A DNA stretch of 64,000 nucleotides from Blastococcus sp. TML/M2B. Its GTDB lineage: Bacteria; Actinomycetota; Actinomycetes; Mycobacteriales; Geodermatophilaceae. Below the pieces are notes generated by a model, which did no database searches, was not told the DNA's origin, and saw only the letters and a program-made list of their open reading frames with translations. Each line of letters starts with the position of its first letter. Within the stretch, counting starts at the first letter, position 1. The position numbers were made by a program, and so were the translations under genes. Positions 9,975 through 37,590 of the stretch are shown piece by piece. Location: NCBI RefSeq assembly GCF_016612865.1, contig NZ_JAENZZ010000003.1, forward strand, positions 124,001 to 188,000. The letters are read 5' to 3'.

Positions 9975-10066
9975 GGGCCCGGAGGGTCCCCGAGGAACCG
10001 CAGAGCAGGGCTCATCGGCACAGGGGAACGGCACGTGGCCGCGGTGCGGTCCGGAGGACCGCGATC
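9975..10066 (-). repeat. Dispersed repeat A, origin copy
   Basis: Read on the minus strand: a hairpin GCGGTCCTCCGGACCGC (10046-10062), then CACCGCGGCCACGTGCCGT, a variable spacer, then GGGACCCTCCGGGCCC (9975-9990). The same order and spacing occur on the plus strand at 20584..20690 and 37485..37590. This copy lies inside the oriC region, next to the dnaA stop codon. Confidence 0.75.
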
Positions 10067-10097
10067 GTCAGGGCCGCGGTGCGGTCCGGAGGACCGC
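10037..10097. repeat. Tandem 26-bp palindromic repeat
   Basis: Two identical 26-bp units (10037-10062 and 10072-10097, period 35), each containing the hairpin GCGGTCC-GGA-GGACCGC. The second unit ends 5 bases from the dnaA stop codon, so it may act as the dnaA transcript end. The units duplicate the head of repeat A. Confidence 0.85.
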
Positions 10098-10102
10098 AGA
10101 CA

Positions 10103-11836
10103 TCACTGCCGGGCGCGGCTCTTGATCCGCGCGGTCAGCTCGGTGACCTGGGTGTAGGTGGCCCGCCGCTCGCTCATCAGGTTGGTGATCTTCTTGACGG
10201 CGTGCATGACGGTGGTGTGGTCCTTGCCGCCGAAGGAGGCACCGATGCGCGGGAGGGAGAGCTCGGTCAGCTCGCGGCACAGGTACATGGCGATCTGACG
10301 GGCGTTGACCAGCGTGCGGCTGCGGTTGGAGCCCTGCAGCTCCTCCATCGTCACGGAGAAGTACTCGGCGGTGGCGGCCATGATGATCGCCGCGGTGATC
10401 TGCGGGCCCTGCTCGTCGCTGATCAGGTCCTTGAGGACGAGCTCGGCCAGGGGCAGGTCGACCTGCTGCTTGTTGAGAGAGGCGAACGCGGTGACGCGGA
10501 TGAGGGCGCCCTCGAGTTCGCGGATGTTGGTCTGCACCTTGCTGGCGATGAACTCGAGCACGGCGTCGGGCACCTGGAGCCGCTCGCCCCACGCCTTCTT
10601 GCGCAGGATGGCGATGCGGGTCTCGAGGTCGGGCGCCTGGACGTCGGTGATCAGGCCCCACTCGAACCGGGTGCGCAGCCGGTCCTCCAGCGTCGTCAGC
10701 TTCTTCGGCGCGCGGTCGGAGGTGATGACGATCTGCTTGCTGGCGTTGTGCAGCGTGTTGAAGGTGTGGAAGAACTCCTCCTGCGTGCGCTCGGCGCGCT
10801 CGAGGAACTGGATGTCGTCGATCAGCAGGAAGTCGATGTCCCGGTAGCGCCGGCGGAAGTCCTCGGCCCGGCCGGAGTGCACCAGGTTGATGAACTCGTT
10901 GGTGAACTCCTCGGTGCTGACGTACCGCACCTTGACGTTGGGGAACATCCGCGCGGCGTAGTGGCCGATCGCGTGCAGCAGGTGGGTCTTGCCCAGCCCG
11001 GACTCCCCGTAGATGAACAGCGGGTTGTAGGCGCGGGCGGGGGCCTCGGCGACGGCGACCGCCGCGGCGTGGGCGAAGCGGTTGCTGTTGCCGATGACGA
11101 AGCTGTCGAAGACGTACTTGGGGTTCATGCCCGGGTCCAGGCCGGCGGGCCGGCTGGTCTCCGGGCGCCGGCCGCGGCCGGATGCCGAGCGACCGCCGCG
11201 CTGGTCGCCGTCGGCGGAGGCGAACGGGAGGACGTCGGCGGACTCGCCACCCCGGTCGTGGGTGCTCGAGCCGGGGTCGGTCGGCCCCCAGGGGGTGGTG
11301 CTCCAGTCCTCGGGTGCGCCGCGGTCGACCGGCGGGCGGCCCCCGTCGAGCGGGCGCAGCTCGCGCACCTCGGGGGCCCGGCCGGCGGTCTCCTCGGAGG
11401 AGTCGCGGTCCCAGGGGGCGGTGCCGACGACGTCGGTGCGGACGCCGAACGCGCTTCGCCCGTCGTCGGCGCGGTCGCGGGTGGCCTGGTCCTCGGCGGC
11501 GCGACGGGCCTCGAGCTCGGCGGCGGACCACGGACGGCGGGTCGGCTCGGGGTCGTCCTGCTCGTCGGCCTGCGGCGGCGCGTCCTCGAGCTGGATGGCG
11601 ACGCGGATGTCGCGGCCGAACTGCTCGGACAGCGCCTCGGCGAGCACCCGGCGCATGCGCGACTCGAGCACGGTCTGGGTGAACTCGTTCGGTGCGGCGA
11701 GCACCGCGGTGTCCTCGACCAGCCCCAGCGGGCGGGTGAGGTTCAGCATGGCGTTCTGCTGCGGGGAGAGGCTGGTGGCCAGCCGCTCCCGGATCTGGTC
11801 CCAGACCGTCGCCAGGTCCAGCGTGGCGTCCGCCAT
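10103..11836 (-). CDS. dnaA: Chromosomal replication initiator DnaA
   Basis: ATP-dependent initiator that binds DnaA boxes and opens oriC. 577 residues. Domain I (about 1-85) begins [20 protein letters not shown]. Domain II (about 90-235) is the long acidic, low-complexity linker typical of actinobacteria. Domain III is an AAA+ module with Walker [15 protein letters not shown] (about residue 280), Walker [11 protein letters not shown] and sensor motif ITSDRAPK. Domain IV has the signature [17 protein letters not shown] that contacts DnaA boxes. The ATG start has a strong GGGGAGGA. Upstream (about 11952-11976) are a CTCGTG-TTCCA-CACGAG hairpin and a DnaA-box-like GTGTCCACA, consistent with autoregulation. 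Confidence 0.98.
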
Positions 11837-12477
11837 GCCGTCGTCCTCCCCATGGTGTCGACCCCGGTGGCCCGAGCCCCTCGCTGCCACTCCCGTCAGC
11901 GTGCCGCCTGCCGGGTGTGGATGGTGCGTTCCCCGGCGGGCAGTGCGGACGCTCGTGTTCCACACGAGTGTCCACAGGCTGTGCACGAGCGGGGGCACCG
12001 GCTCCGGGGCCGGTGAGGGCCCCGGCAACCGACCAGCGTTTCCGCTGGTCAACGCCCCGTCGTCGGAGCTACGGGCGCAGAGGGGGCTGGGATGACCTTC
12101 GGGTCGGCCCGCGCGCCGTGACCCTGTCGTCCGGTGCGGGGCGACGGCGACGCTAACAGCCCCGTCCACAGCCCGGCAACGACGCGGTCGCCGCTCCGGG
12201 CGCGTCGCGACGGCGCGTCGTTCCCCCGCCGGGGCATCATGGGCGGTCCGGATCGCTCCCGGCCACCGTCGGGCGGGATTCCTCGGTTATGCTGTCCGGA
12301 GTCCGTGACGGCTCCTGCTGCCATGCCCGCCCTCGCGCGCGGCTGGTGGGCGGTGGGCCCGTTCCGGAAGACCAGCTTCCGGGGTCCGGAGCGGTGCGGC
12401 TCTCGCCGTCCCGCCCGCCCCCTGCGCGTCCGCCCACCGGTGGCGCGCACCGCCGAACGTGATTGTGGGAGTACCTC
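11837..12477. other. dnaA-rpmH intergenic region (641 bp)
   Basis: Divergent promoter region between dnaA and rpmH; no gene seen. It contains GTGTCCACA at 11968-11976 and CCGTCCACA at 12162-12170, each one or two mismatches from a DnaA box, a hairpin at 11952-11968, and a TATGCT promoter-like hexamer at 12288-12293. The 16-mer CCCGTCCACAGCCCGG (12161-12176) recurs exactly upstream of dnaB (46382-46397). It may extend the origin. Confidence 0.6.
12288..12293 (+). promoter_or_regulatory. Possible -10 box for rpmH operon
   Basis: TATGCT fits the sigma-70-type TANNNT consensus and stands out in GC-rich DNA, but no clear -35 is visible. It would give a leader of about 180 nt before rpmH. Confidence 0.3.
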
Positions 12478-12615
12478 GTGAGCAAGCGCACCTTCCAGCC
12501 GAACAACCGTCGCCGGTCCAAGACCCACGGCTTCCGGCTGCGGATGCGCACCCGCGCCGGCCGGGCGATCCTCGCCGGCCGCCGGCGCAAGGGTCGCGAG
12601 AAGCTCTCCGCCTGA
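12478..12615 (+). CDS. rpmH: 50S ribosomal protein L34
   Basis: 45-residue, strongly basic ribosomal protein L34. It starts at GTG ([20 protein letters not shown]) and ends [11 protein letters not shown], the family pattern throughout. A GGGAG box lies about 7 bases upstream. It opens the plus-strand operon rpmH-rnpA-yidD-yidC-jag-rsmG; rnpA starts one base after its stop codon, so the two are translationally linked. Confidence 0.97.
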
Positions 12616-12616
12616 C

Positions 12617-13006
12617 GTGCTGCCCGCGCAGGCACGCCTGCGCCGGCGCCCGGAGTTCACCGCGGTCGTCCGGTCCGGTCGACGTGCCGGGCGGCCGACC
12701 ATGGTGCTCCACCTCCTCCCCGAGCGGCCCACCGCGGCCGCTCCCCCGTCGCCGTCCCGACCCGTGCACCCCGCCGGTGCACGGGCCGGTTTCGTCGTGG
12801 GCAAGTCGGTGGGCAACTCCGTGGTGCGCCACCGCGTGACCCGCCAGCTGCGGGCCGTCGTCCGCGCCGAGCTCGACCGGCTGCCCGCCTCGGCCGACCT
12901 CGTCGTCCGGGCCCGCCCGGAGGCCGCGACCGCCGGCTCCGCGGTGCTGCAGCGCGACCTCCGCAGCGGACTGGACCGGCTCCTCGGCCGCCGGGACGGC
13001 CGGTGA
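12617..13006 (+). CDS. rnpA: Ribonuclease P protein component
   Basis: Protein subunit of RNase P, which helps the catalytic RNA remove 5' leaders from pre-tRNAs. 129 residues. The RNR motif region [20 protein letters not shown] (about residues 56-75) is intact, with [13 protein letters not shown] at the N-terminus. A Pro/Ser-rich insert (about 38-52) precedes the core and is typical of actinobacteria. GTG start at 12617; its last 4 bases overlap the yidD start. Confidence 0.95.
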
Positions 13007-13356
13007 GCGGCCGCGCGCCGGTGCGCCGCGCCCTGCTGGCCGCGATCGGCTTCTACTCGCGGGCGATCAGCCCCGCCCTGCCGCCGCGCTGCCGCTTCTA
13101 CCCGACGTGCAGCGCATACGCCGCCGAGGCGGTCGAGCGCCACGGCGCCGCCCGCGGGAGCTGGCTGGCGCTGCGCCGGGTCCTCAAGTGCGCCCCCTGG
13201 CATCCCGGCGGCGTGGACCCGGTGCCGACCGCCCCCGGAACCAGCGAGCCCGCCCGGGCGTCGAGCACTGCGGTGCCCGCGTCGGCGGGAGCCGCCCCCG
13301 ACCGTGCCACCCCGCCGGCCCTGTGCCGGGCGAACGAGGAGATCTCCGTTGCTTGA
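13003..13356 (+). CDS. yidD: Membrane protein insertion efficiency factor YidD
   Basis: Small membrane-associated protein that aids YidC-dependent insertion. The core is [42 protein letters not shown], then [19 protein letters not shown], with the conserved Cys residues and WHPGG. After about residue 75 comes a C-terminal extension of some 40 residues, Ala/Pro/Ser-rich, not part of the usual family core. GTG start overlaps rnpA by 4 bp; the end overlaps the yidC TTG start by 8 bp. Confidence 0.93.
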
Positions 13357-14425
13357 CTGGCTGTACACCGCCATCTCCTGGGTGATGGCCCGGTGGCACG
13401 ACCTGCTCTCCACCTTCCTGGACCCCGCGGGCGGCCTCACCTGGGCGCTGTCGATCATGCTGCTGGTCGTCACCGTCCGGCTGCTGCTGTTCCCGCTGTT
13501 CGTCAAGCAGGTGAAGTCGCAGCGGGCGATGCAGGAGCTGCAGCCGGAGATCGCGAAGCTGCGCAAGCAGTACGGCAGTGACCGCCAGGGCATGAGCCAG
13601 GCGATCATGGCGCTGCAGAAGGAGCGCGGGGTCAACCCGCTGGCCGGCTGCCTGCCGATCCTGCCGCAGATCCCGATCTTCATCGCGCTCTTCCACGTGC
13701 TGCGCCGGCTCGCGCCGGGCGCCGACGGCCTCTACAGCTGGTCGGACGAGCTCACCGACCAGGCGGCCAGCGCCGACCTGTTCGGGGCGCCGATCTCCGC
13801 GTCGTTCAACATGGACGGCGCCAAGGAGGCGGCCATCCTGGCGCTGCCCGGGGTCACCTACGGCAGCATCCGCACCGTCGCCCTGATCCTCATCCCGATC
13901 ATGTGCATCACGACCTTCTTCACGCAGAAGCAGATCATGAAGCGCTCCGGCCCGGTCGAGGGCCAGGCCGCCACCGTGCAGAAGCTGCTGCTCTACGGCA
14001 TGCCGCTGAGCCTCTTCGTCACCGGCTTCTTCTTCCCCATCGGCGTGCTCATCTACTGGGTCGTCAACAACTCCTGGACCTTCGGCCAGCAGTTCTTCAT
14101 CCTGCGCAAGATGCCGCCGCCCGGATCCCCCGCCGCGAAGGCCAAGGCCGCCGCCGACAAGCCCGCCATCGACCCGAAGGCCCTCGCCCCGAAGCCGGGC
14201 GCCAAGCCGGTCCGCCCGAAGCAGGGCCGGCCCGCGACGATCGCCCCGGAGAGCACGGTCGACACCGGCGCCGCTGACGGCGACGGCGTCCCCGGCGCGA
14301 ACGGCGCGACCGCGTCGGGTGCCGCCGACGGCCGCCCGGCCGGAGCGGCGGGCAACGGCCCGCGCGGCGGCGCCGGCCGCGCCGGCCAGGGCCCCGCGAA
14401 CCGGGGCAAGCGCAAGCGCCGCTGA
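13349..14425 (+). CDS. yidC: Membrane protein insertase YidC
   Basis: YidC/Oxa1-family insertase that integrates proteins into the cytoplasmic membrane, alone or with SecYEG. About 358 residues. I chose the TTG start at 13349 ([20 protein letters not shown]) because it gives the usual actinobacterial N-terminus and lies 7 bases after GAGGAG. Membrane segments: about 30-50, [14 protein letters not shown] (about 97-110), [16 protein letters not shown], and [20 protein letters not shown]. The cytoplasmic loop [20 protein letters not shown] is typical. The C-terminal ~110 residues are an Ala/Gly/Pro-rich basic tail ending RGKRKRR, a likely ribosome-contacting extension. Confidence 0.95.
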
Positions 14426-14505
14426 CGGCGCACCCCGGACCGACGGTCCGGACACCGACCACCGGGCCCGCCCCGGATGCCCGAACCCACAGTGGAGGAA
14501 CCTCC

Positions 14506-15111
14506 GTGAGTGCCCCGCAGCAGCCCACCACCGACAGCGCCCCCGCGCTCCCAGACGCGGACGCGGCCAGCGACGACGCGCTCGTCGGGCCCGTCGACGT
14601 CGAGACCGGCGGGGCGGGTGAGGCCCCCGGGTCCACCGCGCCGCGTGGGGAGGCCCTGCTCGTCCAGGAGGGCGACGTCGCCGGCGACTACCTCGAGCGG
14701 CTGCTCGACATCCTCGACGTGGACGGCGACATCGACCTCGACGTGGAGGGCGACCGCGCCTCGGTGGCGATCGTCGGCGGCCGGCTGAACGACCTGATCG
14801 GCCCGGACGGCGCCACCCTGGAGGCGCTCCAGGAGCTCACCCGGCTGGCCGTCGCCCAGTCGACCGGCGTCCGCAGCCGGCTGATGCTGGACGTCGGCGG
14901 GTTCCGCGCCAAGCGGCGCACCGACCTCACCGCTCTGGCGGGCGAGACGGCCCGCCGGGTCGCCACCAGCGGCCAGCCGGAGCGGCTGAGCCCGATGAAC
15001 CCGTTCGAGCGCAAGGTCGTCCACGACGTCATCGCCGGGGTCGCCGGCGTGCACAGCGAGTCGGAGGGCGAGGAGCCCAACCGCCGCGTCGTGGTCCTGC
15101 CGGACGCGTGA
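14506..15111 (+). CDS. jag: Jag/KhpB RNA-binding protein
   Basis: RNA-binding protein of the SpoIIIJ-associated Jag (KhpB) family, linked to YidC and to cell-division control. 201 residues. The N-terminal ~60 residues are acidic and disordered. Then a KH-like domain with YLERLLDILDVDGDIDLDVE and GRLNDLIGPDGATLEALQEL (about 65-125), and an R3H domain with SPMNPFERKVVHDVIAG and EPNRRVVVLPDA (about 162-201). The GTG start has GGAGG upstream. The end overlaps rsmG by 4 bp. Confidence 0.94.
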   Translation: MSAPQQPTTDSAPALPDADAASDDALVGPVDVETGGAGEAPGSTAPRGEALLVQEGDVAGDYLERLLDILDVDGDIDLDVEGDRASVAIVGGRLNDLIGPDGATLEALQELTRLAVAQSTGVRSRLMLDVGGFRAKRRTDLTALAGETARRVATSGQPERLSPMNPFERKVVHDVIAGVAGVHSESEGEEPNRRVVVLPDA

Positions 15112-18107: not shown

Positions 18108-19103
18108 TCAGCGGGCGCGGCCCGCCCGCGCCGAGAGCAGCCGGGCGATGACGTCGCCGAGCTCGTAGCCGGCCGCCTCGACGGCCATCGGGAACATCGA
18201 CGTCTCGGTCAGCCCCGGGGAGACGTTCACCTCGAGGAAGTGCACCTCGCCGTCCGGGGTGATGATCGCGTCGGTGCGGGACAGGTCGGCGAGCCCGAGG
18301 ACCTCGTGCACCCGGACCGCCACCTCCGCGGCGCGCGCGGCGACGTCGTCGTCGAGTCGGGCGGGCGCGTGGTACTCGGTGAGGCCGGGGGTGTAGCGGG
18401 CGGTGTAGTCGAAGACGCCGGACTCCGGCTCGATCTCCACCGCGGGCAGCGCCTGCGGGCCGTCGCCGAGGTCGATGACGGCCAGCGCCACCTCCACGCC
18501 CTCGACGTAGCGCTCCACCATGACGGTGTCGCCGTAGGCGAAGCAGCTCACCATGGCCGCGGGCAGGTCCTCGACCCGGTTGATCCGCTGCACACCGAGC
18601 GCCGAGCCACCCGAGGCGGGCTTGACCATGAGCGGCAGGCCCAGGCGGGCGACCATCAGGTCGAGCACGGTGCCCGCGCCCAGCTCGCGGAAGGTGCTGT
18701 GCGGCAGCGCCACCCAGTCCGGGGTCGTGAGCCCGGCGGAACGGACGACGGACTTCGCGGCCGGCTTGTCCCACGCCAGCCGGCAGGCGGCGGCCGGCGA
18801 GCCGACGTAGGGCACCCCCGCGAGGTCGAGCACCGCGCGCAGGGCGCCGTCCTCACCGGTCGCGCCGTGCAGCGCGATGAACACCGCGTCCGCGGGCGCG
18901 GCGGCGAGACCCGGCAGCAGCTCGGCGTCGGCGTCCCGCAGCTCGGCGTCCAGACCGGCGCGGGTGAGCTCCTCGACCACCTGGGTGCCCGAGGAGAGCG
19001 ACACCTCGCGCTCGAAGGTCAGCCCACCGGCCAGGACGACGGCGCGCAACGGGTGCGCCTCCTCGGCCGGAGCGGGCGCCGGGGCGGGTGCGGACTCGGT
19101 CAT
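18108..19103 (-). CDS. D-alanine--D-alanine ligase-like ATP-grasp protein
   Basis: Probable Ddl, which joins two D-alanines for peptidoglycan precursors. 331 residues. Seen: VLAGGLTFEREVSLSSG (N-terminal glycine loop, about 24-40), FIALHGATGEDGALRAVLDL, the ATP-grasp stretch PLMVKPASGGSALGVQRI (about 157-174) and VHFLEVNVSPGLTETSMFP. In well-studied Ddl enzymes the last motif is EVNTLPGFT; here T is V and LPG is SPG, so it may be a paralogue or have relaxed specificity. The N-terminus is an Ala/Pro-rich stretch. It overlaps the upstream aminotransferase by 4 bp. Confidence 0.85.
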   Translation of the reverse strand: MTESAPAPAPAPAEEAHPLRAVVLAGGLTFEREVSLSSGTQVVEELTRAGLDAELRDADAELLPGLAAAPADAVFIALHGATGEDGALRAVLDLAGVPYVGSPAAACRLAWDKPAAKSVVRSAGLTTPDWVALPHSTFRELGAGTVLDLMVARLGLPLMVKPASGGSALGVQRINRVEDLPAAMVSCFAYGDTVMVERYVEGVEVALAVIDLGDGPQALPAVEIEPESGVFDYTARYTPGLTEYHAPARLDDDVAARAAEVAVRVHEVLGLADLSRTDAIITPDGEVHFLEVNVSPGLTETSMFPMAVEAAGYELGDVIARLLSARAGRAR

Positions 19104-20524
19104 CGGCCGTCCTCGTAGGCGTTGCTGTTGGCGGGCCCGACGATCGTGCCCGAGCCGGTGAACGGGGCGTCACCCGCCGGCCGGACCGCCCGGAACGAGC
19201 CGGTGTCCACGGCGTCGAAGGTGCTGTGCAGGTCGAGCTCGGCCTCGATGACGCGGGCCAGCCGGCGCACGCCCTCGCGGATCTGGTCGGGCTCGGGGTA
19301 GCAGTAGGAGAGCCGCATGAACTCCTGGCCGCTGCCGTCGGCGTAGAAGCCGATGCCCGGCACGTAGGCGACCAGCGCGTTCACCGCGCGCGGCTGCATG
19401 AGCTTGGCGTCCAGGCCGCGGGGCAGCTTCAGCCACACGTAGAAGCCGCCGTCGGGCCTGGTCCAGGTGGTGCCGGCCGGCATGAGCGCCTCGAGGGAAT
19501 CCAGGCAGGCGTCCCGCCGCTCGCGGTACAGCTCGGTGAACAGCTTGATCTGCTCGCGCCACGGCTGGGTGTCCAGGTAGCGCGCGACCGCGTACTGGGT
19601 CAGCGACGGCGGGCAGAGCACCTGCGCCTCGGTGGCCAGGACCAGCTTCTCGCGGACGGCGAGCGGCGCCAGCACCCAGCCGACCCGCAGGCCCGGGGAG
19701 AAGGTCTTGGAGAACGACCCCAGGTAGATGACCCGCTCGGCGTTGCGGGCGCGCAGCGCGCGCATCGGCTCGTGCTCGAAGCCGAGCAGGCCGTAGGGGT
19801 TGTCCTCGATGATCAGCAGGTCGTACTTCTCGGCCAGCGCGACGATCGCCTCGCGGCGCGGCTCGGTCAGCGTGACGCCGGCCGGGTTGTGGAAGTTCGG
19901 CACCGTGTAGAGGAACTTGACCCGGTCGCCGCGGGCGCGGCAGTCGATCAGCGCCTCCTCCAGCGCCTCGGGGATCAGCCCGTCGTCGTCCATCGCGACG
20001 TGCCGGACGGTCGCCTGCGCGGACTGGAACACCCCGAGCGCCCCGACGTAGGACGGCGCCTCGGCGAGGATGACGTCACCGGGGTCGACGAAGACGCGGG
20101 TGACGAGGTCCAGACCCTGCTGCGAGCCGACGGTGACGACGACCTCGCTGGCCGACGCGTCGTGGATGCCCTCCAGGGCCATGACGTCGCAGATCCGCTC
20201 GCGCAGCCGCGGATCGCCCTGCCCCGAGCCGTACTGCAGCGTCTGGGCGCCCATGCCGGAGACCAGGTCGCCGATCATCGAGCCGACGGCGTCGAGCGGG
20301 AGGGCGGTGACCGCGGGCATGCCGCCGGCCAGGGACACCACCTCGGGCCGGCTGACCACGGAGAACAGCGCCCGGATCTCCGAGCTCTTCATCCCGTGGG
20401 TGCGTGCTGCGTAGCGGTCGGCCAGCGGGTCCAGCCGCGGATGCCGCGGTGAGGGGTGGGCGGCACCGCGGTGCGCGCCCTGCTGTCCGGAACCGGCCGA
20501 CGAGCCGGGCGGGAGAGTGGCCAC
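19100..20524 (-). CDS. PLP-dependent aminotransferase (class I/II, MocR-like fold)
   Basis: Fold-type I aminotransferase resembling 2-aminoadipate and aromatic amino-acid transaminases; no DNA-binding domain. 474 residues with the GTG start; about 430 if it starts at ATG 20391 (MKSSEIRALFSVV). Seen: SLAGGMPAVTALPLDAV, LQYGSGQGDPRLRERI, VPNFHNPAGVTLTEPRR, IIEDNPYGLLGFE, the PLP lysine in LGSFSKTFSPGLRVGWVLAP, and DGGFYVWLKLPRG. The substrate is not predictable. It forms a 4-bp-overlapping pair with the ddl-like gene, so it may supply or interconvert amino acids for the envelope; this is inference from neighbourhood only. Confidence 0.88.
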   Translation of the reverse strand: MATLPPGSSAGSGQQGAHRGAAHPSPRHPRLDPLADRYAARTHGMKSSEIRALFSVVSRPEVVSLAGGMPAVTALPLDAVGSMIGDLVSGMGAQTLQYGSGQGDPRLRERICDVMALEGIHDASASEVVVTVGSQQGLDLVTRVFVDPGDVILAEAPSYVGALGVFQSAQATVRHVAMDDDGLIPEALEEALIDCRARGDRVKFLYTVPNFHNPAGVTLTEPRREAIVALAEKYDLLIIEDNPYGLLGFEHEPMRALRARNAERVIYLGSFSKTFSPGLRVGWVLAPLAVREKLVLATEAQVLCPPSLTQYAVARYLDTQPWREQIKLFTELYRERRDACLDSLEALMPAGTTWTRPDGGFYVWLKLPRGLDAKLMQPRAVNALVAYVPGIGFYADGSGQEFMRLSYCYPEPDQIREGVRRLARVIEAELDLHSTFDAVDTGSFRAVRPAGDAPFTGSGTIVGPANSNAYEDGR

Positions 20525-20583: not shown

Positions 20584-20690
20584 CAGTGACATCGTCGTCC
20601 TCCGGACGACACCGCGGCCACGTGCCGTCCCCCTGCGGCGGCGAGCGCGTCGGTCATCCCTGCGCGGGACCCTCCGGGCCCCACTCGGGC
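20584..20690 (+). repeat. Dispersed repeat A, copy at 20.6 kb
   Basis: Order: CAGTGACAT, hairpin GTCGTCCTCCGGACGAC (20594-20610), CACCGCGGCCACGTGCCGT, a spacer, GCGCGGGACCCTCCGGGCCC, then CACTCGG. The same elements occur in the same order at 37485..37590 and, reversed, at 9975..10066. It lies upstream of the aminotransferase gene. Confidence 0.75.
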
Positions 20691-20709
20691 TGCGCACTGC
20701 CGACTGCGC

Positions 20710-20803
20710 CCGCCGTCGTCGTCCTCCCTCAGCTCCGAGCGTCCTCCCTCACCGCGCACCACGAGGGAGGACGCTCGACGATCAGGTGACCTGATCGTGG
20801 CGG
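20710..20803. repeat. Double-hairpin dispersed repeat, copy 2
   Basis: A 15-bp stem (20736-20750/20763-20777, 12-nt loop with GCGCACC) followed by ACGATCAGGT-G-ACCTGATCGT (20778-20798). It matches 4008..4097 along its whole length. It ends just before the cwlM stop codon, as the first copy ends just before the stop codon of its neighbour. Confidence 0.75.
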
Positions 20804-20806
20804 GGG

Positions 20807-21994
20807 TCAGAGGTCGCCGGGGAGGGCGAAGGTGCCCGTGGGAGGGTCGGCCTCGGCGGGCAGGAAGAGCCGCTGGACGGCGGCGAGCACGCCCTGGGCG
20901 ATCGAGCCGCGCAGGCGGGCGTCGAGCAGCAGCAGCCGGTCCACCGGGTGGGAGAGGTAGCCGACGTCGAGGCGGACGGCCGGCATCCGGCTCATCCGGA
21001 GCAGGTCCCAGGTCTTGGCGTGCGAGTCCAGGTCGAGCAGGCCGGTGCGGGCGACCACCTCGCGGCGGGCGAGGTTGGCGAACTGCTCGCCGACGGTGGA
21101 CGACGCCCCGGAGCCGGTGCCGTAGTAGAAGCTGGCGACCCCGCGGGCGTGCTCGGACTCGTGCGCGTCCACGTGCAGGGAGAGGAAGAGGTCGGCCCGC
21201 GCGTCGTTGGCGAAGGCGGTGCGCTCGGTGGCCGTCGGGTTCTGGTGCCGGCCGCGGGTCAGGTAGACCGTGGCGCCGGCGGCCGCCAGCCGGCCCTCGA
21301 TCCGCGAGGCGAGGTCGAAGACGAGGTCGGCCTCGGTCGTCTCGCCGTGCGTGTGGCCGGGGTCCTCGCCGCCGTGGCCGGGGTCGATGACGATCCGGCG
21401 GCGGATGAGGTGCGGCCCGCTGTCGACGAACGACGCGCTCTGCCGCAGCAGCTGGGGGCGGCCACCGGTGACCTTGCGGCCGAGCTGGCGCAGCGCGCGC
21501 AGGGTGGCCGGGCCGCAGGTGCCGTCGGAGGTCAGGCCGTAGTCGCGCTGGAAGGCCCGCAGCCCGGTCTCGGTGTCGACGCCGAAGACGCCGTCCACCG
21601 GGCCCGCGTCGTAGCCGAGCTCGTGCAGCCGCTCCTGCAGGTTGATGACGTCGTCACCGCGGACGGCGCGCTCGGGGTCGTAGCGCAGCAGCCGGTCACC
21701 GAGGGACCAGCGGGCCTCGTTGAGTGCGCGGTAGGTCTCCTCGCCCACCCGGCCGTCCACCGACAGCCCGCGGTTCTGCTGGAAGTGCCGGACGGCGAGC
21801 TCGGTCGCGGCGTCGTAGACGGCGGCGTCGAGCGCGACGTCGGGGAGGGTGGCCGTGGCCTGCGGTGGGTGGGGCGCGGCGCTGCCGTCGCCGTCGGGCA
21901 GCAGCCCCAGGCTGCGCAGCGCCGTCTGCACGTCGGCCACCGCGGCTCCACGATCGCCGAGCCTCAGGATCTGCATACCGGTGTTGGCTCCCAT
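20807..21994 (-). CDS. cwlM: CwlM-like N-acetylmuramoyl-L-alanine amidase-fold protein
   Basis: Two peptidoglycan-binding repeats (about residues 8-95 and 112-172: AVADVQTALRSLGLLPDG, NLQERLHELGYDAGPVDGVF) precede an Amidase_3 domain (about 195-380). In mycobacteria the orthologue beside trx genes is a regulator of MurA rather than an active amidase and has lost zinc ligands. Here IDPGHGGEDPG, TTEADLVFDLASRI and LFLSLHVDAHES keep the His, Glu and His positions, but the catalytic Glu near the end is Asp (VRLDVGYLSHPVD). There is no signal peptide, so it is cytoplasmic like mycobacterial CwlM. ATG at 21994 gives 395 residues; ATG 21976 is possible. It is followed by the double-hairpin repeat. 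Confidence 0.88.
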   Translation of the reverse strand: MGANTGMQILRLGDRGAAVADVQTALRSLGLLPDGDGSAAPHPPQATATLPDVALDAAVYDAATELAVRHFQQNRGLSVDGRVGEETYRALNEARWSLGDRLLRYDPERAVRGDDVINLQERLHELGYDAGPVDGVFGVDTETGLRAFQRDYGLTSDGTCGPATLRALRQLGRKVTGGRPQLLRQSASFVDSGPHLIRRRIVIDPGHGGEDPGHTHGETTEADLVFDLASRIEGRLAAAGATVYLTRGRHQNPTATERTAFANDARADLFLSLHVDAHESEHARGVASFYYGTGSGASSTVGEQFANLARREVVARTGLLDLDSHAKTWDLLRMSRMPAVRLDVGYLSHPVDRLLLLDARLRGSIAQGVLAAVQRLFLPAEADPPTGTFALPGDL

Positions 21995-22134
21995 CGTGCC
22001 CACGATTGTCGTCCCCGGCCCCCGTCCCGGCCCAGCGGGGGTACCCCGGAACGGCCACGGGTCCACCTGCCCGGGTGGGCGGGTGGACCCGTTGGGTTCC
22101 GCGGAGTCGTTCCCCTGCGCCGCAGGGGTCCGGC

Positions 22135-22461
22135 TCAGATGTAGTCGGCGAGGTCGCTGAGGATCGCGCCCTTGGGCTTGGCGCCGATGATGCTCTTCAC
22201 CGGCTTGCCGCCCTGGAACACCGTCATCGTCGGGATCGACATGACCTGGTAGTCGCGCGCGATCTGCGGGTTCTCGTCGATGTTGAGCTTGGCGATCGTC
22301 AGCTTGTCGCCGTGCTCGGCGGCGATCTCCTCCAGCACGGGGGCGACCATCTTGCAGGGGCCGCACCACTCCGCCCAGAAGTCGACCAGGACGGGCTTGT
22401 CGCTGCCCAGCACGTCGCTGGCGAAGCTGGTGTCGGTGACCGTCACGGTGTTGCCTGCCAT
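22135..22461 (-). CDS. trxA: Thioredoxin
   Basis: 108-residue thioredoxin, a cytoplasmic disulfide reductant recharged by the adjacent reductase. The active site is FWAEWCGPCKMVAPVLEEIA (Cys-Gly-Pro-Cys at about 32-35). Further family features: VLVDFWAEW, KLNIDENPQIARDYQVMSIP with the cis-proline, and TMTVFQGGKP. ATG start with GGGAG about 9 bases upstream. It lies 86 bases downstream of trxB in the same direction. Confidence 0.97.
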   Translation of the reverse strand: MAGNTVTVTDTSFASDVLGSDKPVLVDFWAEWCGPCKMVAPVLEEIAAEHGDKLTIAKLNIDENPQIARDYQVMSIPTMTVFQGGKPVKSIIGAKPKGAILSDLADYI

Positions 22462-32665: not shown

Positions 32666-33925
32666 TCAGCCGCGGACGGGGGCGGGGGTGCGGCGGCGCA
32701 GGCCCAGGAACGCCACGACGGCGAGCAGGTACCCGGCGCCGATCGCCAGCAGCACCGGCACCGAGCGGCCCGACTCGGGCAGCACGAACGCGGCGGCCAC
32801 GACGGCCCCGACGAAGGCGACGTTGAACAGGGTGTCGTAGACGGAGAACACCCGGCCGCGGACGTCGTCCTCGACGTCCTCCTGCAGGGTCGCGTCCACG
32901 CAGATCTTCACGCCCTGGCCGACCAGGCCCAGGACGAAGCCCCCGGCGAGGACCGCCGGCGGTGAGAACGGCAGCCCGAGCAGCACCTGGGCCACCCCGC
33001 CGACCAACAGCAGCCCGACGGTCCAGCGGACCCGCCCGGCGCGGCGCACGGCCGCCGGGGTGACGAACGCGGCCAGCAGCGAGCCGGCCGCGATCGCTGC
33101 CACCAGCTGGCCCAGCCCGGCCAGCCCGCCCCGGACGAGGCCGGTGGCGTCCTCGAACGGGCCGCGGTGCAGCAGCAGCGTCATGAGGGTGAACAGGCCG
33201 AAGCAGACCCGGTGCAGCCCGATCGCGGCCAGCGCCGCGGCGACGCGGGGCAGCCCCCAGGCGTACCGGGCGCCGGCGACCATGCCGGCGACGACGTGCC
33301 GGGCCGCCGGCTGCTCGGCACCCGCGTCCGGCCCCAGGTAGCGGCGGTCGAAGCCCGAGACGACGGCGGAGGCGGCGAGGTAGGGCAGCGCCGCGGCCAG
33401 CGCGATCGCGGCGTACCCGGCGTCGCCCGAGCCGGTGAGCGGCAGCAGGAGCAGCGCCGTGCCGCCACCGGCCACGGTGGCGATCGACCCCGCCGTCGTC
33501 GACAGCGCGTTCGCCGGCACGAGGGCGTCGGTCGTGTGCGGCAGCCCGGCCGACAGCGCGGCCAGCACGAACCGGTTGACCGAGAAGACCGCCAGCCCCG
33601 CGAGGTAGAACGGGACGCCGTCGACCCCGCCGAGGATGACCGCCGCGACGACCGCGACCAGGGCGGCGCGCAGCACGTTGGCCCGCAGCAGCACCGCCCG
33701 CCGGCTCCAGCGGTCCAGCCACACGCCGGCGAACGGGCCGAGCAGCGACCAGGGCAGCAGCAGGACGGCGAACCCCGCGGCGACCTCCAGCGGGTCCGCG
33801 GCGCGCTGCGGGTTGAACAGCACCGTGCCCGCCAGCGCGGCCTGGAAGACGCCGTCCCCGAACTGGGCCAGCAGGCGGGTCGCGAACAGCCGGCGGAAGT
33901 CGCGCCGGGCGAGCAGGGAGCGCAC
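32666..33925 (-). CDS. MFS transporter
   Basis: 419-residue major facilitator with about 11-12 membrane segments. It starts VRSLLARRDFRRLFATRLLA. The loop after TM2 reads AGVWLDRWSRRAVLLRANVL, the MFS-3-like G-x-D-R-x-x-R-R motif; the second half includes GQGVKICVDATLQEDVEDDV and RGRVFSVYDTLFNVAFVGA. Similar proteins are annotated as putative drug or macrolide exporters; the substrate is unknown. The GTG start has GGAGGAGG about 9 bases upstream. Mycobacterial origin regions lack this gene at this place. Confidence 0.88.
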   Translation of the reverse strand: MRSLLARRDFRRLFATRLLAQFGDGVFQAALAGTVLFNPQRAADPLEVAAGFAVLLLPWSLLGPFAGVWLDRWSRRAVLLRANVLRAALVAVVAAVILGGVDGVPFYLAGLAVFSVNRFVLAALSAGLPHTTDALVPANALSTTAGSIATVAGGGTALLLLPLTGSGDAGYAAIALAAALPYLAASAVVSGFDRRYLGPDAGAEQPAARHVVAGMVAGARYAWGLPRVAAALAAIGLHRVCFGLFTLMTLLLHRGPFEDATGLVRGGLAGLGQLVAAIAAGSLLAAFVTPAAVRRAGRVRWTVGLLLVGGVAQVLLGLPFSPPAVLAGGFVLGLVGQGVKICVDATLQEDVEDDVRGRVFSVYDTLFNVAFVGAVVAAAFVLPESGRSVPVLLAIGAGYLLAVVAFLGLRRRTPAPVRG

Positions 33926-34016
33926 CGTGGCCCCCTCCTCCCGCACCCGGCCAGCGTAGGAGGACGGCGGGACGACGACGACGCCGGCGGCCCGGAGGTG
34001 GGGCACACTGGGGACG

Positions 34017-34674
34017 ATGACGCCGGTGCCCGATCCCGAGTCCGGCCCGCCCGCGCGGCCCGGGACCGGTCGTCGGCGCGCGCCGGTGCCGGCGCTGTCC
34101 ATCGGCGACCTCGACGACGTGCGCCCCGGCTCGTTGCTCGTGGCCATGCCCGGGCTCTCCGACCCCACCTTCGCGGGCTCGGTGGTCTACGTCCTCGACC
34201 ACTCGGAGACCGGCACGCTCGGCGTCGTCCTGGGCAGCCCGAGCCAGGTGGAGATCCGGGACGTGCTGCCCGGCTGGCGCGACCTGGCGGTCGAGCCCGG
34301 CGTGTTCCACGTGGGCGGGCCGTGCGAGACCGACACCGCGCTGTGCCTCGCCCGCTGCCCCGCGCCGGGGCCGCCGGCCGGCCTCGGGCTGCGCCCGGTC
34401 GCCGACGGGATCCACCTGATCGACCTCGACGTCGACCCCGAGCCGCTGACCGGCTGCGTGGCCGGGCTGCGGGTCTTCGCCGGTTGACGCGGGCTGGTCG
34501 CCCGGGCAGCTGGCCGGCGAGCTCACCGAGGGCGCCTGGGCCGTGGTGCCGGGCTCGCCGGACGACGTCCTGGCCGATATCTCGGGCCCGGAGCTGTGGC
34601 GCGCGGTCGTGCGGCGGCAGCGCGGGCGGCTCGCCGTGCTGAGCACCGCGCCGGCCGACCCGACGGTGAACTGA
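34017..34674 (+). CDS. YqgE/AlgH family protein, frameshifted
   Basis: UPF0301 family, function not established. Starts MTPVPDPESGPPARPG; conserved stretches are RPGSLLVAMPGLSDPTFAGS (about 39-58), VYVLDHSETGTLGVVLGSPS and VFHVGGPCETDTALCL. At about 34484 one extra G turns GGT TAC GCG into GGT TGA, giving an early stop after GLRVFAG. One frame over, the expected C-terminus continues (AGWSPGQLAGELTEGAWAVV, ending STAPADPTVN, stop 34672-34674). Restored length about 218 residues. The break is probably a sequencing error. The start resembles a leaderless one (CACACT 7 bases upstream). In mycobacteria a yqgE homologue lies close to pcnA as well. Confidence 0.88.
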
Positions 34675-34715
34675 GGGTGGCTGCCGGAACGCCGCGCATC
34701 TGGTAGGAAGTACCC

Positions 34716-34752
34716 GGGAAGGGGCGGTCTGGGGAAGAGGCCGCCCCTTCCC
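34716..34752. terminator. Bidirectional terminator
   Basis: A 12-bp stem GGGAAGGGGCGG / CCGCCCCTTCCC with a 13-nt loop, between the convergent yqgE and lipoprotein genes. ACTTGTCT follows on the plus strand. Confidence 0.8.
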
Positions 34753-34799
34753 ACTTGTCTGCCCGGGCCCGGATGGGCCCTATAGGCGCCCTACAGGCC

Positions 34800-35549
34800 C
34801 TAGAGGCCGATGGCCCCGGCGAGCTCCGGGTGCTCGGCCAGCGGTGCCGACTGCGCCTCCCCCGGCAGGTCCAGCGCGCGGGGGCCGTGCTCGGCCAGCG
34901 TCGTCATCGCCTCCAGCTCGCCGTCGGCGGCCGGCAGCGGCGTCGCGAACTGCACGAGCAGGTCCTCGGTCGAGGAGACCGCCACCGTGCGCTCGCCGGG
35001 CAGGCCGAACAGGTCGGTCGGGCGGCCGTCGATCGAGCGCCGCCCCTCCCAGCTGTAACCGCCGGCCAGGAAGCCGGCCGGGTCGTCGCCGTCGTCGGCG
35101 GCGAGGCCCAGCACGATGCCCACCAGGACGTCGACCAGCGGGGGCTCGGCCTCGCCGGCCTCCACGGGGCGGGTCAGGAAGGTCGCGCCCGAGCCGCCCA
35201 GCGCCTCGGTCGCGCCCGGGACGTCGCCGAACCACAGCTGATCGCGGGAGAAGAAGACCGTGCGCACGAGGTCCACGCCGTCGGCGCTGGTCACCGCCGT
35301 CGCCCGACCCGTCCCGGCGCGGAAGTCGACCTCGCCGGTGAGCGTCAGGACGGCGCCGTCGCCGAAGGGCGCGGTCACCACGAAGTCGGCGCCGCCCTCG
35401 GCGCGGTTGCGCTCCAGCAGCGCGGCCAGCACCGCCGCCTCGTCCCGCGTCACGGCGTCCCCGGCGTCGCGCCGCCCGCCGTCCCCCGCGCACCCGGTCA
35501 GCAGCGCGAGGGCCACCGCCGCGGCGGGGAGCAGGGTCCGGGGCCGCAT
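34800..35549 (-). CDS. Putative lipoprotein (LppX/LprG-like size)
   Basis: 249 residues. Signal sequence LLPAAAVALALLTGCAGDGG with lipobox LLTGC (Cys about 20), so it is probably diacylated and held on the outer face of the membrane. The mature part reads as beta-rich, with DFVVTAPFGDGAVLTLTGEV and YSWEGRRSIDGRPTDLFGLP. Size and pattern recall mycobacterial LppX/LprG carriers, but I cannot claim homology. ATG start; stop TAG just beside the terminator. Downstream of ino1 but separated by a terminator hairpin. Confidence 0.8.
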   Translation of the reverse strand: MRPRTLLPAAAVALALLTGCAGDGGRRDAGDAVTRDEAAVLAALLERNRAEGGADFVVTAPFGDGAVLTLTGEVDFRAGTGRATAVTSADGVDLVRTVFFSRDQLWFGDVPGATEALGGSGATFLTRPVEAGEAEPPLVDVLVGIVLGLAADDGDDPAGFLAGGYSWEGRRSIDGRPTDLFGLPGERTVAVSSTEDLLVQFATPLPAADGELEAMTTLAEHGPRALDLPGEAQSAPLAEHPELAGAIGL

Positions 35550-35596
35550 GGCCGCCAGCGTAGGCAGCGCGCGGCCCGCAGCCCCGCAGACGCGAC

Positions 35597-35630
35597 GAGG
35601 GCCCGCACTCCGGGTGGAGTGCGGGCCCTC
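35597..35630 (-). terminator. Terminator of ino1
   Basis: A perfect 15-bp stem GAGGGCCCGCACTCC / GGAGTGCGGGCCCTC with a GGGT loop, about 50 bases after the ino1 stop and before the lipoprotein gene. Confidence 0.8.
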
Positions 35631-35632
35631 AT

Positions 35633-35683
35633 GCGGTGCTGGGATCAGTGCGGTGCTGGGATCAGTGCGGTCCCGGGATCAGC
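35633..35683. repeat. Three tandem 17-bp units at the ino1 3' end
   Basis: Units GCGGTGCTGGGATCAGT (35633-35649, 35650-35666) and a variant GCGGTCCCGGGATCAGC (35667-35683). The last unit contains the ino1 stop codon, so the array looks like duplication of the 3' end of the gene. Confidence 0.8.
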
Positions 35684-36758
35684 GCTCGATGTCGCCGCGG
35701 ATGAAGGCCTCCACGGCGTCCCGGGCCTGGCTGTCGTCGTACTGCTCCGGCGGGGACTTCATGAAGTACGAGGACGCCGACAGGATCGGGCCACCGATGC
35801 CACGGTCCTTGGCGATCTTCGCGGCACGGACGGCGTCGATGATGATGCCGGCCGAGTTCGGGGAGTCCCAGACCTCGAGCTTGTACTCCAGGCTCAGGGG
35901 GACGTCGCCGAACGCGCGGCCCTCGAGGCGGACGTAGGCCCACTTGCGGTCCGAGAGCCACGGCACGTGGTCCGACGGGCCGATGTGCACGTTGTCCTTG
36001 CCCATGTCCCGGTCGACCTGGCTGGTGACGGCCTGGGTCTTGGAGATCTTCTTGGACTCCAGGCGCTCGCGCTCGAGCATGTTCTTGAAGTCCATGTTGC
36101 CGCCGACGTTGAGCTGCATCGTGCGGTCCAGCTGCACGCCGCGGTCCTCGAACAGCTTGGCGAGCACGCGGTGGGTGATGGTGGCGCCGACCTGGCTCTT
36201 GATGTCGTCACCGACGATCGGCACGCCGGCGGCGGTGAACTTGTCCGCCCACTCCTTGGTGCCGGCGATGAAGACCGGGAGGGCGTTCACGAACGCCACA
36301 CCGGCGTCGATCGCGGCCTGGGCGTAGAACTCCGCGGCCTGCTGCGAGCCCACGGGGAGGTAGCAGACCAGGACGTCGGCACCGGACTCGCGCAGGGCGG
36401 CCACGACGTCGACCGGCTGCTCGTCGGACTCCTCGATCGTCTCGCGGTAGTACTTGCCGAGCCCGTCGAGGGTGGTGCCGCGCTGGACGGAGACGCCGAG
36501 CGGCGGGACGTCGCAGATCTTGATGGTGTTGTTCTCGCTGGCGACGATGGCCTCGGAGAGGTCGCGGCCGACCTTCTTGGCGTCCACGTCGAACGCGGCG
36601 ACGAACTCCACGTCGGAGACGTGGTAGTCGCCGAAGCGGACGTGCATCAGGCCGGGCACGGACGTGGACTCGTCCGCGTCGCGGTAGTAGTGAACGCCCT
36701 GCACGAGCGACGCGGCGCAGTTGCCGACGCCGACGATGGCGACCTTCACGGAGCCCAT
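35679..36758 (-). CDS. ino1: Inositol-3-phosphate synthase
   Basis: NAD-dependent isomerisation of glucose 6-phosphate to myo-inositol 1-phosphate, the first step towards mycothiol and phosphatidylinositol in actinobacteria. 359 residues, normal for the actinobacterial short form. Seen: [20 protein letters not shown] (NAD-binding, about 4-23), [63 protein letters not shown] and [13 protein letters not shown]. The ATG has GAAGGAGAG upstream and lies 13 bases inside the 3' end of the padR gene, so the two are co-transcribed. Confidence 0.96.
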
Positions 36759-37438
36759 GGCTCTCCTTCCCCTGGACCCTCAGCGGGTCCGACGGACGCG
36801 GACCGGGTGCGGTCCGCGGATGACGGTGCAGGGGCCGCCGGTGCCGGGGCGTCGCCCGGCTCCTCGCGTCCTGCTGTGCTCCCCGACGCCTCACGGCGTT
36901 CGGAATCGATCAGCTCCGAGAGCCAGCGGACCTCCCGGTCCACCGATTCCAGGCCGTGGCGCTGCAGCTCGAGGGTGTAGCGGTCGAGCCGCTGACGGGT
37001 CCGCGACAACGAGGACCGCAACCCTTCGCGCTGCCGCTCGACGGTGCGACGGCGGCCCTCGAGGATCCGCAGTCGCACGTCGGAGGCCGTGTGCCCGAAG
37101 AAGGCGAGGCGGACCCCGAAGAGCCCACCGTCGTCGTACGCCTCCGGCCCGGTCTGGCTGACCAGGTCGTGGAAGCGCTCCTTGCCCTCCGCGGTGATCG
37201 TGTAGACCACCTTCCCGCGCCGGCCGGTGAGCGCCGGGGCGTCCGCCGGGAGCAGCGCGTGCGGCGTGGGCTCGTCAGCGCTGATGAGCCCGGCCGCGCG
37301 CATCCGCTTGAGCGCGGGATACAGCGAGCCGTAGGAGATGCTCCGCAACCCGCCGAGCACCTGCGCGAGCTGCTTGCGCAGCTCGTAGCCGTGCATCGGC
37401 GCCTTGTGCAGCAGACCGAGGATGGCGAACTCGAGCAC
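36746..37438 (-). CDS. PadR-family transcriptional regulator
   Basis: 230 residues. The N-terminal winged helix is typical: [20 protein letters not shown] (about 2-21), [18 protein letters not shown] and [19 protein letters not shown]. Next is the Vir_C-like helical region (residues about 120-185, [20 protein letters not shown]...), then an Ala/Pro/Ser-rich tail of about 40 residues. A GTG start with GAGGAGG immediately upstream; of two adjacent GTGs I chose 37438 for spacing. Rv0047c occupies the same place before ino1 in mycobacteria. It likely controls itself and ino1 through the palindrome at 37464..37480. Confidence 0.92.
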
Positions 37439-37463
37439 CACGCCTCCTCGGTCCCACGGTCGA

Positions 37464-37480
37464 TGTATCGAGACGATACA
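37464..37480. promoter_or_regulatory. Candidate PadR operator
   Basis: TGTATCG-AGA-CGATACA, a perfect 7+7 inverted repeat 25 bases upstream of the padR start. PadR operators often contain ATGT...ACAT half sites; ATGTATCG here fits. It also contains TATCG/CGATA, less GC than the surroundings, so it may overlap the promoter. Confidence 0.7.
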
Positions 37481-37484
37481 ACGA

Positions 37485-37590
37485 CATGTGACATTGCGAC
37501 CCTCCGGGTCGCACCGCGGCCAGGAGTCGTCCCCCGGCTGGGTGGAGCGCGTCCGTCGCGCCTGCGCGGGACCCTCCGGGCCCCACTCGG
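37485..37590 (+). repeat. Dispersed repeat A, copy at 37.5 kb
   Basis: Order: CATGTGACATT, hairpin GCGACCCTCCGGGTCGC (37495-37511), CACCGCGGCCAGGAGTCGT, a spacer, TGCGCGGGACCCTCCGGGCC followed by CCACTCGG. It matches 20584..20690 along about 105 bp. The hairpin arms differ but remain complementary. It lies between padR and the zinc-ribbon gene. Confidence 0.75.

Follow-up and report, generated by a model that had tools for sequence, protein, structure and literature searches.

Copies of the repeat in the window

Three full-length copies of a repeat of about 108 bp, made up of two unlike hairpins (H1 and H2), are located in the window, which is the whole stretch of 64,000 nucleotides of Blastococcus sp. 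TML/M2B analysed here. Inspection of the sequence recovered all three with their parts in the order given in a preliminary description of this DNA, and a covariance model built from 15 copies, the three window copies included, bears this out (91.1, 105 and 112.2 bits). The features are as follows.

9960-10070, minus strand: copy 1, full-length element (covariance model, 91.1 bits), 3' of dnaA and in the same direction as dnaA
10046-10062, minus strand: H1 of copy 1, GCGGTCC TCC GGACCGC (sequence)
9975-9990, minus strand: tip of H2 of copy 1, GGGACCCTCCGGGCCC (16-mer match)
10081-10097, minus strand: extra H1 with linker, a tandem duplication (sequence; partial model match 10071-10097)
9864-9888, minus strand: second tip of H2 near copy 1 (16-mer and model match)
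20586-20696, plus strand: copy 2, full-length element (covariance model, 105 bits), between an aminotransferase gene (19100-20524, minus) and an amidase gene (20807-22369, minus; Pfam neighbours)
20594-20610, plus strand: H1 of copy 2, GTCGTCC TCC GGACGAC (sequence)
20666-20681, plus strand: tip of H2 of copy 2 (16-mer match)
37488-37598, plus strand: copy 3, full-length element (covariance model, 112.2 bits), in a divergent gap with minus-strand coding on the left and a DUF5318 gene (37671-38081, plus) on the right
37496-37512, plus strand: H1 of copy 3, GCGACCC TCC GGGTCGC (sequence)
37568-37583, plus strand: tip of H2 of copy 3 (16-mer match)

The H1 arms differ between the copies (GCGGTCC, GTCGTCC and GCGACCC) yet stay complementary, as had been noticed before. 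The element runs beyond some of the ends quoted earlier, the outer stem of H2 closing near 37598 in copy 3 and near 20696 in copy 2. In copy 3 this outer stem, GTCGCGCC / GGCACGAC, encloses the H2 tip. Exact occurrences of the 16-mer in the window number four, being the three copies and 9864-9879; with up to two mismatches there are five matches, against 0.70 expected. Placement is atypical in two of the three copies, copy 3 lying in a divergent gap and H1 of copy 2 facing a gene start.

The oriC copy is on the dnaA side of the dnaA-dnaN gap, immediately behind the dnaA stop codon (10103-10105). The extra H1 lies 5 nt behind this stop codon and before copy 1. A partial copy had previously been proposed near 9864 and the 16-mer is indeed there, but it is apparently a piece of a longer composite form (9856-10100) made of this second tip and copy 1. 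The composite form recurs elsewhere, the stretch 9856-10100 being matched almost entire at a few other places, for example in genomes G012 and G060.

Architecture of the repeat

Each unit is ordered as a head, H1, the linker ACCGCGGCCASGAGCCGTCCCC, which is conserved, a spacer that varies, and H2. The head is most often TGACAYNG, the commonest form in 148 copies being TGACAY followed by C or T before H1, and its TGA can serve as a stop codon. H1 is a 7 bp hairpin with a TCC loop, while H2 is a long hairpin with an inner stem of about 9 bp and an outer stem of about 8 bp. Some copies carry tandem duplications of either H1 or the block of linker plus H2. Tandem H1 is found at locus L075 and in the window (10081-10097), and tandem units of 83–92 bp that have no H1 are found at loci L051, L071, L092 and L124.

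The reading of the head as purely a target site was dropped because TGACAY is also present in 16 of the 29 copies with an upstream stop codon more than 14 nt away. At the H2 end, 74 copies have hardly any conservation past CGAC and no duplication was seen, the flanks being much diverged. A conserved target tetranucleotide on the H2 side is absent from the same number of copies, and a terminal inverted repeat sought from the ends of 74 copies was not established.

Conservation of the fold and its strand

Both hairpins are held by compensatory change. This was assessed in 53 copies chosen by their Watson-Crick pairing (5 or more of 8 pairs in the outer stem, 5 or more of 7 in the inner stem), in which 95.9% of cells are paired, a percentage inflated by the choice of copies for stem pairing. 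Double changes are present in 12 of 24 pairs in these selected copies (7.9 in shuffles), and the covariation score is 0.324. Shuffling gives 0.142, with none of 500 shuffles reaching the observed score, and sliding gives no more than 0.069. The selection on structure proposed earlier is supported by these changes.

G-U pairs are distributed very unequally between the strands. Where plus is the strand read from H1 to H2, the 53 selected copies have 145 G-U cells on the minus strand and 5 on the plus strand, and 31 distinct outer stems have 17 and 3 respectively (p 0.0026), although the copies behind these counts are not independent. The selection rule treats both strands alike and the asymmetry is therefore not its product. 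The wobble pairs place the RNA-like fold probably on the strand opposite to the H1-to-H2 direction, and the strand of the earlier reading is thus probably not the folding strand. RNA folding of single copies is unimpressive, with z from -0.16 to -4.58 on the minus strand and from -0.18 to -2.27 on the plus strand of six copies. Rfam has no match at the gathering score over the window, and in six loci only two sub-threshold matches, both outside the element. No named element of this form was found in the open literature searched either, in keeping with the preliminary description.

Distribution across genomes

The genome of strain TML/M2B has 34 matches at E<=0.001, partial ones counted, and its best full-length match reaches 115 bits. 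Matches are present in 47 of 57 genomes of the family, own included, which would be the Geodermatophilaceae. The 80 listed of the 89 stretches in named genomes are all from Blastococcus, Geodermatophilus, Modestobacter, Klenkia or a Geodermatophilaceae bacterium. Copies per genome range from 0 to at least 67, and genome G040 (genus g4) is without any match. No match to one consensus-like copy was found in plasmid (72,556) and phage (50,697) records.

A chance similarity, or one confined to a GC-rich low-complexity core, might be suspected from the GC content of the copies (76–77%) and from an H2 tip almost wholly of G and C. This is exceedingly improbable, being refuted by the genome and class scans: matches are full-length and reach the score given above, only 3 of 295 other genomes of the class match at E<=0.001, one of them convincingly, in a shallower scan, and double changes are more numerous than in shuffles. 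The covariance-model search of this and related genomes suggested in the preliminary description returned many further copies, matched over their full length and with paired changes. Neither of the two refuting outcomes named there occurred.

On the minus strand the loops of both hairpins present GGA (CC-GGA-GG), and transcripts of many copies could titrate CsrA, which is encoded in this genome and in 45 of 54 family genomes. CsrA is missing from exactly the nine genomes sampled from genera g6, g9 and g11, all of which are without the element. However, these nine represent three genera, are in 190–550 contigs each, and may owe their state to a single loss or few losses and shared ancestry, and G040 has CsrA but no element. 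In addition, tight binding of CsrA comes with an A(N)GGAX context according to the accessible part of PMC4005645, a context which the CC-GGA-GG loop does not have. Titration of CsrA by minus-strand RNA is a candidate role, and a very unlikely one.

Position relative to genes

The counts leave out L141 and L142, which belong to the array of L124, and copies with too little sequence around them for flanks. Also left out are copies whose coding call was not clear, which among 131 concerned 9 on the upstream and 18 on the downstream side. The upstream gene is on the same strand in 106 of the 122 callable copies and reversed in 16. In 57 of those 106 a stop codon is located 3–14 nt before H1, and a reading frame enters or passes the element in 18 of the 106 sense copies. 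Gaps with a copy are convergent in 55 of 82 cases, compared to 28 of 282 gaps without one, and the element is often bordered directly by the stop codons of the genes on both sides. In co-directional gaps it is the plus strand, not the folding strand, that is the transcribed one (26 versus 10), and this would not be expected if the minus strand acted in 3'-UTRs.

Within 8 nt after H1 or H2, none of 100 copies has five or more T on either strand, and the repeat is therefore no canonical terminator. Three terminator scans around the three window copies likewise gave no sites. CAY stands at the RTG place in 92 of 148 heads. A ribosome-binding site on the minus strand (GGAGG, 6 nt, RTG) was rejected on the one copy inspected visually (loci L003 and L132), in which the ATG is out of frame with the likely gene.

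These positions could reflect an element with a host function at gene 3' ends, working between convergent genes as a stop or roadblock in both directions and spreading mainly by gene conversion and duplication and not by transposition. The share of convergent gaps among those occupied, the abutting stop codons and the usable TGA of the head are consistent with this, as is the copy behind dnaA, which the profile still finds in 15 of 23 genomes of the genus, several of these matches being partial or mosaic. The lack of a U-tract and of terminator-like sites argues against it, as do G040 with no match and the opposite orientations in one gap described below, and this explanation is rather doubtful. 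It is also conceivable, but quite unlikely, that the repeat is a formerly mobile one that guards gene ends in a strand-specific way. The fold would then be kept only antisense to the gene before it, with the stop codon of the head and H1 against the stop, and would halt or cap polymerase or RNA from the other side before antisense entry into the gene.

Mobility

Occupancy of the window sites differs between species. A match at the 20.6-kb site is present in 9 of 23 genomes of the genus (3 plus, 6 minus; some matches weak) and at the 37.5-kb site in 4 of 23 (some matches weak). In one gap the orientation of the copy is reversed from one species to another, and both filled and empty alleles are seen at orthologous sites, with a shortened protein. 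The differing occupancy and the opposite orientations in one gap are as for a mobile element, and the earlier suggestion of a small mobile element is supported to this extent. Because identity is alike within and between genomes (means of 0.698 and 0.685 in 95 copies) and the best identity within a genome is only 0.905, there has been no recent burst of copying. Five orthologous pairs have 94–100% identity, compared to 85.7–92.5% in their aligned flanks, and this conservation exceeds the expectation for a passenger.

No transposase that could move the repeat was identified among the Y1 and Y2 types sought in 54 family genomes. Mobilisation of the RAYT/IS200 type was rejected, with Y1_Tnp (PF01797) found in 0 of 54 family genomes, own included, and in 5 of 14 control genomes, E. 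coli among them. The IS91 type was likewise rejected, with Y2_Tnp in 1 of 54, that one being without the element, in a search that had no positive control. A strict pattern scan of 89 loci found no ORF-bearing parent between the halves of the repeat. In that scan 29 left halves found a partner on the right, of which 27 stand at the usual distance, one 162 bp away and one at least 4 kb away; the remaining copies were left unpaired by the strict patterns, and the search is therefore a weak negative.

The repeat could accordingly be read as a selfish, decaying miniature transposon, the fold being what a lost single-strand-specific transposase recognised and the position behind genes being merely tolerated. 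The transposases of IS200/IS605 and RAYT systems recognise only one of the two strands, in its folded form, and such recognition would also generate a one-strand fold. The strand-specific pair of hairpins with no inverted terminal repeats found, the variable occupancy and the presence of both orientations in one gap all fit, and in the accessible part of PMC3049150 the IS elements and repeats of pneumococcus are likewise over-represented in convergent gaps. The near absence of Y1_Tnp and Y2_Tnp, the lack of a parent in the strict scan and the conservation of the five orthologous pairs speak against a selfish transposon, as do the maintained G-U wobbles, which would suit RNA better than DNA. 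It is a possible explanation, although not a probable one.

Comparison with known repeats

Elements derived from IS200/IS605 have hairpins near both ends and a one-strand fold, and have no inverted terminal repeats. The Geodermatophilaceae repeat shares these hairpins and this fold, and inverted terminal repeats were not found in it. Unlike IS200/IS605, it has no Y1 transposase in the 54 family genomes and no conserved tetranucleotide on the H2 side of 74 copies. ERIC/IRU elements are over 100 bp, imperfectly palindromic and intergenic. The likeness to them in size, palindrome and location is one of description, and the palindrome of ERIC is single and central, whereas here there are two separate hairpins and a conserved linker.

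REP of the GTAG and CGTC super-families are high-copy palindromes mostly 3' of genes, as here (106 of 122), and those of the CGTC super-family similarly have no dedicated transposase, as far as the accessible part of PMC3733652 describes them. From the same source, REP measure 20–40 bp and carry a GTAG or CGTC tag that is unpaired. The present repeat is of about 108 bp with a CAYN head, is not a single palindrome of 20–40 bp, has no unpaired GTAG or CGTC at its end, and is in hosts without Y1 transposase (0 of 54). The terms Actinobacteria, Geodermatophil, Blastococcus and Frankia each occur 0 times in the main text of PMC3733652.

BOX, RUP and SPRITE of Streptococcus pneumoniae are also small, dispersed, RNA-foldable and enriched between convergent genes, in the accessible part of PMC3049150. 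BOX is built of modules, the middle one of which is repeated in tandem (PMC3049150), and here too there are end modules and a middle that can repeat in tandem, the block of linker plus H2. SPRITE, like this repeat, is near gene 3' ends (PMC3049150). Their host is of another phylum, and they are likened by description, not by sequence. BOX and RUP end in inverted repeats and are flanked by target duplications (PMC3049150), neither of which was found here. The long U-rich tract of SPRITE (PMC3049150) is absent, no stem being followed by a T run in 100 copies. Wobble pairs on one strand alone set the Geodermatophilaceae repeat apart from all three as they are described there.

Interpretation

Taken together, the earlier interpretation is partly supported. 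The element is probably a non-autonomous, family-specific dispersed palindromic repeat whose fold is of RNA type and which is either kept or tolerated at the 3' ends of genes, and on balance it appears to be the same in kind as REP, BOX, ERIC and SPRITE. Copies of such a repeat may have been spread by a putative trans-acting enzyme long ago, in an ancestor from which most genera of the family descend, and would persist where insertion harms no promoter. The most likely role of those kept would be as stable structures at transcript 3' ends, which would stop exonucleases or hinder read-through from one convergent gene into the other, in a way unlike U-tract terminators.

The Geodermatophilaceae (Blastococcus, Geodermatophilus, Modestobacter and Klenkia) thereby gain a dispersed structured repeat where none is described in the open literature searched, and the covariance model recovers tens of copies in many genomes. 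It is present in a lineage with no detected Y1 transposases, the enzymes that explain classical REPs. The one-strand wobble and the tight spacing to stop codons make the question of a parasite or a 3'-end device directly testable.

Structure of the element

The three copies of the dispersed repeat claimed in the preliminary description are present in the window sequence, and a covariance model made from 15 copies of the organism's own genome locates them as follows.

9960-10070, minus strand, window copy 1
20586-20696, plus strand, window copy 2
37488-37598, plus strand, window copy 3

Read from H1 to H2, which is the plus strand, the consensus starts with TGACAYNG and the 7-bp hairpin H1 with its TCC loop, followed by the linker ACCGCGGCCASGAGCCGTCCCC, a spacer that is variable except for an invariant GAG, and the hairpin H2. 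Typically H2 has the tip GGGACCC TCC GGGCCC and an outer stem of GTCGCGCC paired with GGCGCGAC or GGCACGAC. Tandem arrays at loci L051, L071, L092 and L124 have units of 83-92 bp made of linker and H2, without H1, and are a possible marker for strain typing.

There are 145 distinct H1 hairpins, orthologous loci counted in, and 978 of their 1015 pairs are Watson-Crick, with common variation at four of the seven pairs. The arms are of two main types, GTC.. and GCG.., therefore many of the double changes are inherited rather than independent. Over 24 pairs in the 53 copies that have a complete H2, 95.9% of the 1266 cells are paired, a value inflated by the choice of these copies for a partly paired stem. 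Double changes occur at 12 of the 24 pairs, and the covariation score is 0.324 against 0.142 when shuffled (0 of 500 as high) and at most 0.069 when slid. Among the 15 model copies alone, there are no H2 double changes.

The folding strand

As minus-strand RNA the 1266 cells comprise 1069 Watson-Crick pairs, 145 G-U and 52 others; as the plus strand they comprise 1069, 5 and 192, respectively. Much of this minus-strand G-U excess reflects inheritance at certain fixed columns: U-G pairs occupy 14/34 in 49 of 52, and G-U pairs occupy 17/31 in 27 and 18/30 in 29. When 31 distinct outer stems are counted, the wobble ratio is still 17 minus versus 3 plus (two-sided binomial p 0.0026). H1 wobbles number 18 minus versus 5 plus, 13 of the 18 being in one column. 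Folding energies of six copies agree weakly with the minus-strand fold, with z of -2.05, -2.62, -0.16, -0.56, -4.58 and -1.78 on the minus strand and, in the same order, -1.12, -0.33, -0.18, -1.24, -2.27 and -1.12 on the plus strand. On the minus strand of H1, the GGAGG of the loop is followed after 6 nt by RTG in 92 of 148 heads, which resembles the spacing of a ribosome-binding site, with no reading frame known for it.

Copy number and distribution

At E<=0.001, the whole-genome model search proposed in the preliminary description gives 34 matches in the organism's own genome, which is 4.11 Mb in 4 contigs; the count takes in partial and tandem matches. Of 57 family genomes, this one counted, 47 have matches, from 2 to at least 67 each; the upper figure is a lower bound, since it equals the number of candidates that were scored. 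The other ten have none, also on a repeat search with laxer filters. In a class scan, 4 of 296 genomes match (this genome, one convincing copy and two weak hits of about 31 bits each), although absence beyond the family is less certain because 12 candidates were scored per genome, recovering 12 of the own genome's 34. The convincing copy, single and diverged (46.8 bits, locus L180 about 1501-1583), is in genome G093, a 280-contig assembly from another family of the class, and may stem from transfer or assembly contamination. A search with an exact pattern gave 89 stretches from the collection of named genomes, and the 80 titles that were listed are all Geodermatophilaceae.

Best identity between copies within a genome is 0.905, with means of 0.698 within and 0.685 between genomes. 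Copies within a genome are not younger than those between genomes, therefore the spread of the element looks old. No parent element was found in a strict pattern scan. Among candidate mobilising enzymes, PF01797 (Y1_Tnp) is found in 0 of 54 family genomes, and PF04986 (Y2_Tnp) in 1 of 54 in a search without a positive control.

Gain and loss at individual sites

By profile, the element is at the 37.5-kb site in 4 of 23 genus genomes, once weakly and once as two inverted copies; a fifth has, by eye, a lone H1-like hairpin. At the 20.6-kb site it is present in 9 of 23, three in one orientation and six in the other. Five of these six have a tandem H1, which suggests that they probably derive from one event. 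Behind dnaA, 15 of 23 have a profile match, some of them weak, in a single orientation throughout, and several are mosaics with another hairpin repeat. At loci L123 and L033 the protein is ended by the TGA of the element; at L062 and L032, whose site lacks the element, it is six codons longer (translated by eye).

In shared gaps, flanks are mostly about 80-87% identical and element likeness is often not above that of random pairs (0.76, sd 0.05). Orientation is opposite in 11 of 53 pairs, or 10 of 51 if the window and own loci L122 and L127 are counted once, and five pairs are conserved at 94-100%. These pairs cannot be treated as independent, and the loci had been chosen for carrying the element.

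Next to copy 2 (window 20717-20806) is a second dispersed repeat, with a hairpin GCGTCCTCCCTCA...CACGAGGGAGGACGC and then a palindrome GATCAGGTGACCTGATC, which has at least 10 further places in the own genome and copies within the genus; its palindrome recurs at window 4072-4088 as GATCAGGTCACCTGATC. A near-palindrome, CGATGTATCGAGACGATACAACG, adjoins copy 3 (window 37461-37483), is seen by eye, with small changes, in the 23 genus genomes, and may serve the left-hand gene as an operator. A third hairpin repeat, by eye roughly AAGGACCCCNTCC...GGANGGGG, begins at the dnaA stop codon (TAG or TAA); several genomes have it fused into the element's H1 or standing in place of that hairpin.

Third hairpin repeat, behind dnaA, by eye: loci L217, L220, L221, L223, L225, L227, L231, L235

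Location relative to genes

Gene strands were called from codon usage for 131 copies. The upstream gene is sense in 106, reverse in 16 and not called in 9, and the downstream gene is convergent in 80, forward in 33 and not called in 18. A stop codon lies 3-14 nt ahead of H1 in 57 of the 106 sense copies, with peaks at -7 (20) and -10 (15); in 18 of the 106 a reading frame enters or passes the element. A simple gene caller applied to the 89 loci gives 55 convergent gaps, 26 co-directional and 1 divergent where the element is present, against 28, 152 and 102 for element-free gaps of at least 40 nt in the same loci (Fisher p 3e-24), counts that are not independent because the loci contain orthologous groups. 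In co-directional gaps the sense orientation is favoured, 26 versus 10 (p 0.011).

Known repeats and potential function

The closest known kinds are the pneumococcal BOX, RUP and SPRITE (PMC3049150) and the REP families (PMC3733652, PMC2817692, PMC12306157). The element is like these in genomic place and dispersal, but it differs from REP in tag, size and transposase and from SPRITE in the U-tract. In 100 copies neither H1 nor H2 has a U-tract after it, whichever strand is read, and a search around the three window copies found neither terminator-like nor sigma-70-like sites. Listings of open-licence papers showed none on such repeats in Geodermatophilaceae; a description may be in print elsewhere.

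CsrA was sought because both minus-strand loops contain GGA. It is present in 45 of 54 family genomes, and the own-genome gene, at G000:C1:624600-624755, is a csrA gene in an actinobacterium. The nine genomes lacking it are exactly those of three genera (g6, g9 and g11), all element-free; the sole mismatch among the 54 is G040, with CsrA and no element. This association is weak, since it comes from three genera whose ancestry is shared, and the loops offer CsrA an unfavourable context (PMC4005645).

The position behind genes suggests tolerance or use at transcript ends, and the fold on the antisense strand suggests that it matters for RNA, or single-stranded DNA, arriving from the opposite side. 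A purely selfish, decaying miniature transposon and a host-functional 3'-end element between convergent genes both share parts with the reading preferred here, and the likelihoods of the three overlap and do not sum to one. With moderate confidence, we take the element to be a formerly mobile dispersed repeat that now forms stable 3'-end structures, for which we infer a role in transcripts.
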